A DNA stretch of 64,000 nucleotides from Stappia indica (GTDB lineage Bacteria; Pseudomonadota; Alphaproteobacteria; Rhizobiales; Stappiaceae): positions 3,315,001-3,379,000 of the forward strand of contig NZ_CP046908.1 in NCBI RefSeq assembly GCF_009789575.1. Direction: 5' to 3'. Below, piece after piece: positions 5,575 through 51,756 of this stretch; within the stretch, counting starts at the first letter, position 1; every line of letters starts with the position of its first letter. A model generated the notes under the pieces. The model saw only the letters and a program-made list of their open reading frames with translations, did not search any database and had not been told where the DNA came from. The translations under genes were made by a program, and so were the position numbers.

Positions 5575-8202
<2,628 letters not shown>

Positions 8203-8311: not shown

Positions 8312-8340
8312 TTGACAAAGCGGGCCGCCCCCCCTATACG
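8312..8340 (+). promoter_or_regulatory. Sigma-70-type promoter of rpsL
   Basis: TTGACA at 8312-8317 is a perfect -35 hexamer. It is separated by 17 bp from TATACG at 8335-8340, which matches the -10 consensus in its first four bases. Transcription would begin about 8347, some 36 nt before the rpsL ATG, so rpsL can be transcribed independently of gyrB. Confidence 0.75.
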
Positions 8341-8382: not shown

Positions 8383-8754
8383 ATGCCGACAATCAACCAG
8401 TTGGTTCGCCTGAACCGTAAGCCGACCGTCAAGAAGTCCAAGACCCCCGCGCTGGGCGGTAACCCGCAGAAGCGCGCGGTTTGCACCCGCGTCTACACCA
8501 CGACGCCGCGCAAGCCGAACTCGGCTCTTCGTAAGGTCGCGCGTGTTCGCATGACCAATGGCAATGAAGTCACCGCCTACATTCCGGGCGAGGGCCACAA
8601 CCTGCAGGAGCACTCCGTGGTGCTCGTGCGTGGCGGCGGCCCGAACGATCTTCCGGGCGTGCGCTACCGCGTGATCCGCGGCGTGCTCGACACCCAGGGC
8701 GTCAAGGACCGTAAGAAGCGCCGTTCGCTCTACGGCTCCAAGCGTCCGAAGTAA
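8383..8754 (+). CDS. rpsL: Ribosomal protein S12, divergent solitary copy
   Basis: The 123-aa product is clearly S12 (MPTINQL start, [13 protein letters not shown] end), the decoding-centre protein of the 30S subunit. It is unusual at conserved places. Residue 43 (Met counted as 1) is Arg in TTTPRKPNS instead of Lys, and the loop normally reading RGGRVKDLPG reads [10 protein letters not shown], so residue 88 is Asn instead of Lys. Changes at Lys43 and Lys88 are the classical streptomycin-resistance sites. Asp89, the methylthiolation site, is kept. rpsG, fusA and tuf do not follow; the gene has its own promoter and terminator. No clear Shine-Dalgarno sequence precedes the ATG. It may be a paralogue of an S12 in a normal str operon elsewhere, or the only copy; I cannot tell from this window. 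Confidence 0.93.
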
Positions 8755-8795
8755 GCTTCCAGCCGGGTCCCGCCCGGCAGGGAATTGTCTTGTCG

Positions 8796-8835
8796 AGGCC
8801 TTCCGGACACCCGTCCGGGAGGCCTTGATGTTTTT
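8796..8835 (+). terminator. Rho-independent terminator after rpsL
   Basis: The stem is AGGCCT-CCGGAC / GTCCGG-AGGCCT with one unpaired base on each side and loop ACCC, followed by TGATGTTTTT. It lies 42 bp after the rpsL stop. The reverse orientation lacks a T-run, so it serves the plus strand. Confidence 0.85.
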
Positions 8836-24556: not shown

Positions 24557-24670
24557 CGCGGCGTAGCTCAGTTGGAAAGAGCACCTTGCTTTCGACGCGC
24601 ATTTGGATGTCACAGTCACAATGTACGGGCAAGGAGGTCGCGGGTTCAAGTCCCGCCGCCGCGCACACCA
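24557..24670 (+). tRNA. tRNA-like gene with an interrupted anticodon loop
   Basis: All outer parts of a cloverleaf are present: acceptor CGCGGCG/CGCCGCG (24557-24563 with 24657-24663), T8 A9, D-arm GCTC/GAGC with GG, T-arm GCGGG-TTCAAGT-CCCGC (24640-24656), and a G15-C48 pair. The anticodon stem CCTTG pairs with CAAGG, but the loop has 41 nt instead of 7, an insertion of about 34 nt. Removing it after position 33 would leave CTACGGG, an Arg(ACG)-like loop; other cut points give Gln(UUG), Arg(UCG) or Glu(UUC). The acceptor is followed by C, then ACACCA, so the CCA end is displaced. It may be a decayed tRNA or one with a tiny intron. Confidence 0.55.
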
Positions 24671-47996: not shown

Positions 47997-50944
<2,948 letters not shown>

Positions 50945-51145: not shown

Positions 51146-51493
51146 TCAGCCGAGCCACTCCTGCGGGTTGTCGGCGGAATAGTCGACGGGATCGCCCATC
51201 GTGCCCTCCTCGCGCAGCGTCCAGTAGGCGGCGTGCAGCCGTGTGGTGAAGCTGCCCGGCGCGCCGTTGGCGACCGCCTTGCCGTCCGCCGACGTGAGCG
51301 GAACGCCGCCGCCGGCGGTCGTCGTCAGGACGGCGCAGGCCGAAAGCCATGCCGGCGACACCCCATCAGAGGAACACGCTGCGGCAGGTCGCTGCCGGGC
51401 GCCGGCGGGTGGCCCGATATCGCGTGAGGTGTGGGGTTCGGAATACAAGATATTGACCGCAAGGCGCTGGGCATGCCTAGATCGTGTTGTCAT
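51146..51493 (-). CDS. Small open reading frame of uncertain reality
   Basis: A 115-codon frame ends ...TREEGTMGDPVDYSADNPQEWLG-like (C-terminus REEGTMGDPVDYSADNPQEW). I recognise no family and see no good ribosome binding site. It faces the nrd riboswitch, and the segment might be chance in GC-rich DNA. Apart from this frame nothing coding is seen between tRNA-Ala and the riboswitch. Confidence 0.25.
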   Translation of the reverse strand: MTTRSRHAQRLAVNILYSEPHTSRDIGPPAGARQRPAAACSSDGVSPAWLSACAVLTTTAGGGVPLTSADGKAVANGAPGSFTTRLHAAYWTLREEGTMGDPVDYSADNPQEWLG

Positions 51494-51499
51494 GGTGTC

Positions 51500-51655
51500 C
51501 GCGATTCGGCGCGGATGAAAAGGGAAGCCGGTGCAAGTCCGGCGCTGCCCCCGCAACTGTAAGCGGCGAGCCGACGTCCACGCATGTCACTGGGACCACC
51601 GGGTCCCGGGAAGACGGACCAAGGCAACGACCCGCGAGCCAGGAGACCTGCCAGG
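51500..51655 (+). ncRNA. Cobalamin riboswitch
   Basis: The aptamer is recognised by GGGAAGCCGGTGCAAGTCC, then CTGCCCCCGCAACTGTAAGCGG, the GGGAAG segment after 51601, and the B12 box GAGCCAGGAGACCTGCC at 51636-51652. It lies about 115 nt before nrdH and should reduce expression of the B12-independent ribonucleotide reductase when adenosylcobalamin is plentiful. Confidence 0.95.
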
Positions 51656-51756
51656 ACCTTGTAACGAACCCGGTCGGTGGGCCCGGAGGCGTCGTACGGT
51701 CGTGGCCTCGCCGCGACTGTTCGCGTCCCTGTCCCTGCCGCCCGCATCAGGCAGAG

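Follow-up and report, generated by a model that had tools for sequence, protein, structure and literature searches.

A solitary S12 gene of streptomycin-resistance type as the probable replacement of the native str-operon copy in Stappia

Ribosomal protein S12 is a universal protein of the decoding centre, and its gene belongs to one of the most conserved operons. The window analysed here, a stretch of 64,000 nucleotides from the genome of the marine alphaproteobacterium Stappia indica (contig NZ_CP046908.1, positions 3,315,001 to 3,379,000), carries an S12 gene outside that operon and with altered residues, which raises the question of whether this gene accompanies an ordinary copy or has taken its place, and from where it came. 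The gene, rpsL, occupies positions 8383–8754 of the plus strand and encodes a complete S12 of 123 residues containing TTTPRKPNS and [10 protein letters not shown]. In the profile search, residues 1–123 scored 202.6 bits against TIGR00981 (rpsL_bact), above the cut-off of 112.95, which places the protein in the bacterial uS12 family. Codon 43 (8509–8511, plus strand) specifies Arg instead of Lys, and codons 86–88 (8638–8646, plus strand) specify Gly-Pro-Asn instead of Arg-Val-Lys; the translation and a check of the positions bear out the original reading of K43R, R86G, V87P and K88N with Asp89 retained. Shuffling the sequence 100 times never reproduced the back-translated loop pattern, which the window contains once, so chance is no concern for this loop. 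Residues 43 and 86–88 belong to the two S12 loops that face the decoding centre.

The gene is solitary, as originally noted, and stands away from rpsG-fusA-tuf. Upstream is gyrB (5755–8202, plus strand), which the neighbour scan found at this place in all 14 Stappia loci; downstream is a photolyase-related gene (PF04244; 8863–10404, minus strand), present in 11 of the 14 and missing from L097, L106 and L119. No biosynthetic cluster adjoins the Stappia S12 among the nearest neighbours scanned, which are gyrB and, mostly, the PF04244 gene. The promoter TTGACA-17-TATACG (8312–8340, plus strand) is retained in the upstream regions of all 14 Stappia; TTGACA and TATA are invariant, the -10 element ends in CG or GG, and the flanks drift. 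The automatic promoter scan reported none because it requires T as the last base of the -10 element. A terminator-like hairpin followed by a T tract (8791–8830, plus strand) is no better than chance expectation, with one site found 3′ of the gene against a mean of 1.0 in shuffles of that stretch.

Two other features of the window were observed. A tRNA-like match at 24557–24664 (RF00005, 54.6 bits) has an anticodon loop that, at about 39 bases by eye, looks far too long, and received no call from ARAGORN; it would be a broken or intron-bearing tRNA. A Cobalamin riboswitch (147.5 bits) lies at 51476–51669, near a tRNA-Ala at 50869–50944.

The Stappia indica genome is a single closed contig of 5,116,759 bases with one S12 and one S7 match, and its str operon is without rpsL, so that the second rpsL for which a search of that operon had been proposed is not there. 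A paralogue beside a standard S12 is ruled out by this single copy and by the one S12 in each of the 14 Stappia genomes (the window's own and 13 more). Among the 41 genomes compared (own and 40 relatives), 39 have S12, one each. The 14 Stappia share the same form of the protein and the same residues, at 97–100% identity. In 11 genomes from other genera of Stappiaceae, S12 is 74–76% identical to the Stappia protein, and the ten of these returned as loci all have K43 and RVK and stand beside rpsG. The S12 is abnormal for its lineage, the other genera of the family having a canonical S12 in the str operon.

The same comparison bears on the reading of the gene as an ordinary lineage variant, for which close relatives would have to carry the same residues in their only S12 and in a normal str operon. 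The first part agrees with the data (14/14 Stappia) and the second does not, since S12 stands next to rpsG in none of the 14. Residues common to all 14 genomes, with rpsG never 3′ of the gene, indicate a replacement fixed in the genus, neither an ordinary lineage variant nor a second copy. Of the original description, a specialised or resistance-type S12 and possibly a paralogue of a standard copy, the resistance-type residues stand and the paralogue does not, the genome having one S12.

The str operon was read in eight of the 14 Stappia genomes; G001 has no S7 match and the other five were outside the S7 search. In the window's genome the interval between rpoC and rpsG has a leader resembling, by eye, that before rpsL of the sister-genus genome G015, but rpsL is absent; in seven further Stappia genomes rpoC is followed by rpsG with no S12 between them. 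G015 runs collinear with the window as far as gyrB extends, except for a stretch with a LysE-type gene, and has no S12 within the 20-kb stretch holding its gyrB. The lack of S12 at this place in G015, together with the rpsL missing from the Stappia str operon, points to a gain at the gyrB site and a loss of the native gene.

That Lys43 and Lys88 are streptomycin-resistance positions, as originally stated, is documented. Passages of PMC10521367 attribute extremely high streptomycin resistance in Agrobacterium fabrum to K43R, and passages of PMC13390409 give, for Escherichia coli, 64 mg/L for R86S and more than 32,768 mg/L for K43N and K88R. A substitution at K43, R86 or K88 marks streptomycin-resistance rpsL alleles, and the window's S12 is substituted at all three. 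Since changes at these positions are known to confer resistance, Stappia ribosomes should be intrinsically streptomycin-resistant, a prediction made from the S12 residues. PMC4557100 lists Stappia stellulata Ss-F1, an isolate named by a 16S match of 98.7%, as streptomycin-resistant (100 mg/L) but not as kanamycin-resistant; this is the profile expected from an S12-based mechanism, seen in one 16S-identified isolate, and Rhizobium isolates listed alongside it were likewise streptomycin-resistant (PMC4557100). A search of all 14 Stappia found no APH(6). AadA_C genes occur in four of the 14, the window's genome not among them, so that resistance could also stem from other causes.

We propose, with a little more than even confidence, that the Stappia S12 is a solitary replacement, of resistance type, of the native S12 of the str operon. 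An S12 gene with coupled R43, G86-P87 and N88, acquired from a different bacterium or born by duplication of the native rpsL, would have been gained beside gyrB in the Stappia ancestor and placed under a promoter of its own. Once ribosomes were built with the new S12, the native rpsL would have become dispensable and been lost from the str operon, leaving the new gene as the sole S12 of the genus. The resulting ribosomes would be streptomycin-resistant, with accuracy rebalanced through the rewritten loop. Antibiotic pressure may have selected this S12, which would then give Stappia its resistance, and the loop and R43 may compensate for each other.

The pattern GGxPxDLPGV[R/S]Y was scanned over one genome per species, for 84,980 species; the collection has no contigs shorter than 3 kb and may not include the very closest records to the window, and residue 43 lies outside the pattern. 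The scan returned 24 loci, all of them S12, and 22 combine R43 with G86-P87. Ten loci have the Stappia S12 sequence type, nine from named Stappia and one from a Rhodobacteraceae MAG. The remaining two of the 24 (L108 and L117; a UBP7 MAG and a MAG with a near-identical S12) have K43 and R86-P87, as GGRPKDLPG, and are the only cases of P87 seen without R43. Across 125 distinct S12 strings, residue 43 and residues 86–87 were K/RV in 103, R/GP in 19, K/RP in two and R/RV in one; R43 is present in all 19 strings with G86-P87 (two of them cut Hellea fragments) and in one of the 106 others. A natural change at two resistance positions was also seen in an alphaproteobacterial str-operon S12 (L045, genome G389), which has R43 and an RVS loop (K88S). 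In another record (L246, genome G828), a Hellea-like N-terminal half with R43 is fused to a canonical loop at the edge of a MAG contig, beside a Hellea-like rimO; two S12 genes were probably fused there during assembly, and the record was removed before all counts, as was L247, a piece without a clear reading.

Carriers of the R43/G86-P87 type in Proteobacteria are Stappia, Hellea (five loci), Lichenibacterium ramalinae, a Caulobacterales MAG, and the MAGs BS301 (alpha) and UBA7310 (gamma); outside Proteobacteria they are Pseudonocardia thermophila, an Actinomycetes MAG and a Falkowbacteria MAG. Two further carriers, which escape the scan pattern through other residues after the loop, are the alphaproteobacterium G068 and Indioceanicola profundi, the latter with the gene on a 1.18-Mb plasmid. 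Their S12 proteins are identical at 103 of 123 residues and may represent a single acquisition, for which reason Indioceanicola is left outside the count of lineages. At least seven proteobacterial lineages thus carry this S12, none beside rpsG. Its neighbours are gyrB in Stappia; rimO in Hellea and Indioceanicola; an adenylate cyclase gene in Lichenibacterium; a molybdopterin-dependent dehydrogenase gene in the Caulobacterales MAG; a SIS-domain gene in BS301; and an integrase-core gene in G068. With rpsG sought up to 1.5 kb 3′ or to the end of the piece, it was found for none of 14 distinct proteobacterial S12 of this type and for 103 of 103 others (Fisher p 2e-18, relatedness ignored); this count omits contig-edge rows, unreadable rows including L136, and non-proteobacterial rows, and predates the Indioceanicola copy. 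The three non-proteobacterial carriers have their R43/G86-P87 S12 inside the str operon, so the solitary location is not general for the type.

Outside Stappia, native copies or their remains are still found, and the carriers form a displacement series that runs from both genes intact, through a native gene without its decoding loop and a 3′ stub, to no trace. UBA7310 (L135) has an intact canonical str-operon S12 besides the solitary one; BS301 (L136) has, besides its solitary S12, a heavily altered str-operon ORF without the decoding-loop residues. These are the only co-occurring str-operon copies seen, both outside Stappia. Lichenibacterium (L280) keeps, ahead of rpsG, a short 3′ piece of rpsL (tblastn E 0.003 when a small number of loci was searched). 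In the Caulobacterales MAG (L284) the remnant is the last 24 bases or so before rpsG, recognised by eye only and given no match by BLAST. No trace of a native S12 was found at the str operon in eight Stappia genomes, in G068 or in the three Hellea genomes with an S7 locus; two other Hellea MAGs have no S7 match and stand outside this count. In the controls G199 and G813 the str-operon S12 is canonical and intact.

In UBA7310 the solitary S12 adjoins a run of genes on the opposite strand (L285-L286) that encode an inositol-3-phosphate synthase (above the Pfam and below the NCBIfam cut-off), two carbamoyltransferases, a glycosyltransferase, a PhyH oxygenase, an APH-like kinase and a SurE-like phosphatase and, further along, a class-III aminotransferase, a third carbamoyltransferase and an SDR-aldehyde dehydrogenase. 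We take this run to resemble aminocyclitol biosynthesis. With an S12 altered at the streptomycin site next to such genes, self-resistance would make sense, and the arrangement suggests it. An S12 gene in or beside a biosynthetic cluster is therefore seen, by gene content only, in UBA7310, and is not seen in Stappia. On the side of the solitary S12 away from the gene run, some 6.4 kb distant, is a phage-type integrase. The stretch has a GC content of 0.436 against 0.524, and its tetranucleotide correlation with the str-operon contig is 0.30; this deviating composition fits an island, but equally a binning error.

The enzyme RimO modifies Asp89 of S12. A dependence of the rewritten loop on RimO was considered and rejected: RimO above the family cut-off was found in none of the 14 Stappia and none of the eight family genomes searched, and in nine of the 12 other carriers searched, and so it does not track the loop. 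The gene rimO lies 0.2–1.2 kb upstream of the solitary S12 in all five Hellea genomes (including L102, L105 and L110), and on the Indioceanicola plasmid a RimO-type gene (L298, 5418–6851) is directly upstream of S12. The Hellea and Indioceanicola RimO are 57–59% identical and the latter is 59–64% identical to other RimO; as the two are not specially close, the adjacency of rimO and S12 probably arose twice.

Overall identity points to no donor, for no non-Stappia S12 exceeds 80% among the matches listed from 385 genomes of the class and 398 of the phylum (342 and 371 of which have an S12 match); the nearest non-Stappia S12 is that of the Caulobacterales MAG, at 81%. Trees that include 13 proteobacterial sequences of the R43/G86-P87 type were built with all columns and without columns 43, 83, 86–88 and 95. 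Two explanations of the recurrence, which we hold to be equally plausible and neither of them probable, make opposite use of these trees. One S12 lineage could have spread horizontally on islands and plasmids, displacing native rpsL genes as it went. The full-column tree agrees with this, joining all 13 proteobacterial sequences in one clade (95/91), but with flagged long branches and a bootstrap that had yet to converge; once the trait columns are removed the clade disappears, though it is still not rejected (AU p 0.467). The reduced tree still pairs Lichenibacterium with the Caulobacterales MAG across orders (96/82). Mobility is further favoured by the Indioceanicola plasmid copy with its near relative in G068, by the integrase-core gene adjoining the G068 S12, and by the integrase and different composition of the UBA7310 stretch. 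Against it, the Indioceanicola plasmid is typed non-mobilizable, and of the 12 plasmid S12 records read (of 68) 11 are canonical, Indioceanicola profundi being the exception. A phage or viral source was rejected, as 28 viral-contig matches to the pattern hold no S12 and the one phage S12 record read (of 18) is canonical.

Alternatively, each solitary copy could be a duplicate of its host's native gene that gained the same residues independently. Without the trait columns the solitary S12 of UBA7310 groups with its own native copy (92/78), which speaks for such convergence and against a single mobile lineage, and groupings with host relatives are not rejected for Lichenibacterium (p 0.204) or Hellea (p 0.298); the str-operon cases in Pseudonocardia and others point the same way. 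On the other side, 117 columns give low power, and the cross-order pairing of Lichenibacterium speaks against it. A protein of 123 residues is too short to decide between transfer and repeated duplication, and our proposal of a replacement in Stappia accommodates either source.

It is rather unlikely, in our estimation, that the rpsL native to the family was simply relocated beside gyrB and evolved rapidly there, with no foreign gene and no drug selection, R43 and the loop being side effects. Stappia placed with its own family is not rejected without the trait columns (AU p 0.16), and the C-terminal part of its S12 ([12 protein letters not shown]) looks alphaproteobacterial when inspected by eye. 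That grouping nevertheless costs 13 log-likelihood units, and the protein has been nearly frozen since the change, as the identity within Stappia attests; moreover, the coupled R43/G86-P87 recurs in at least six other solitary proteobacterial lineages and in three str-operon cases from other phyla, which drift does not predict. An assembly or binning artefact behind the MAG cases, to which the composition of the UBA7310 stretch and the chimeric L246 could lend colour, is very improbable, given that named isolates are among the Stappia, Hellea balneolensis, Lichenibacterium and Indioceanicola records, that G068 and the window's genome each consist of one contig, and that in BS301 the compositions match (0.60 and 0.59, correlation 0.92).

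A wider scheme, which we offer as speculation and think doubtful, is that a solitary resistance-type S12, which arose as self-resistance beside a streptomycin-like aminocyclitol pathway, moves among bacteria by way of islands and plasmids and has time and again ousted the native S12; if true, the sole S12 of entire genera, Stappia among them, is a resistance gene. Because S12 has been displaced repeatedly, with intermediates at several stages, how an essential ribosomal gene is replaced can be tested directly. R43 coupled with G86-P87 offers a natural solution, shared by a whole genus, to altering resistance positions while the ribosome keeps working. Intrinsic streptomycin resistance may exist in some environmental genera that lack the usual resistance gene, and an extra S12 of the R43/G86-P87 type could flag unknown antibiotic pathways.

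The literature searched (the titles and abstracts listed on rpsL duplication or transfer and on self-resistance through ribosomal proteins) holds no report of a solitary R43/G86-P87 S12, and the closest known systems differ from it in part. Streptomycin-resistance rpsL alleles (K43R, K88R and R86S among others) affect the same loops, at positions 43, 86 and 88, and a ribosomal, streptomycin-specific resistance is likewise predicted for Stappia; as far as the cited passages describe them, these alleles are single changes of the native gene, whereas Stappia has four joint changes in a relocated sole gene, identical in all Stappia compared. The dityromycin self-resistance of Streptomyces AM-2504 (PMC6763770) also employs an altered S12 as target-based resistance, and passages of that paper present it as the first self-resistance through a ribosomal protein. 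Its effective changes, V32T and R55K in the numbering of that paper, are not those of Stappia, which keeps Val and Arg (V33 and R56 with Met counted). Among producers of protein-synthesis inhibitors (PMC9290621), rpsL is listed as one of the recurrent genes, and duplicated or incongruent ribosomal genes mark producers; in Stappia, with no cluster seen adjoining, the native gene has been displaced instead of gaining an extra copy.
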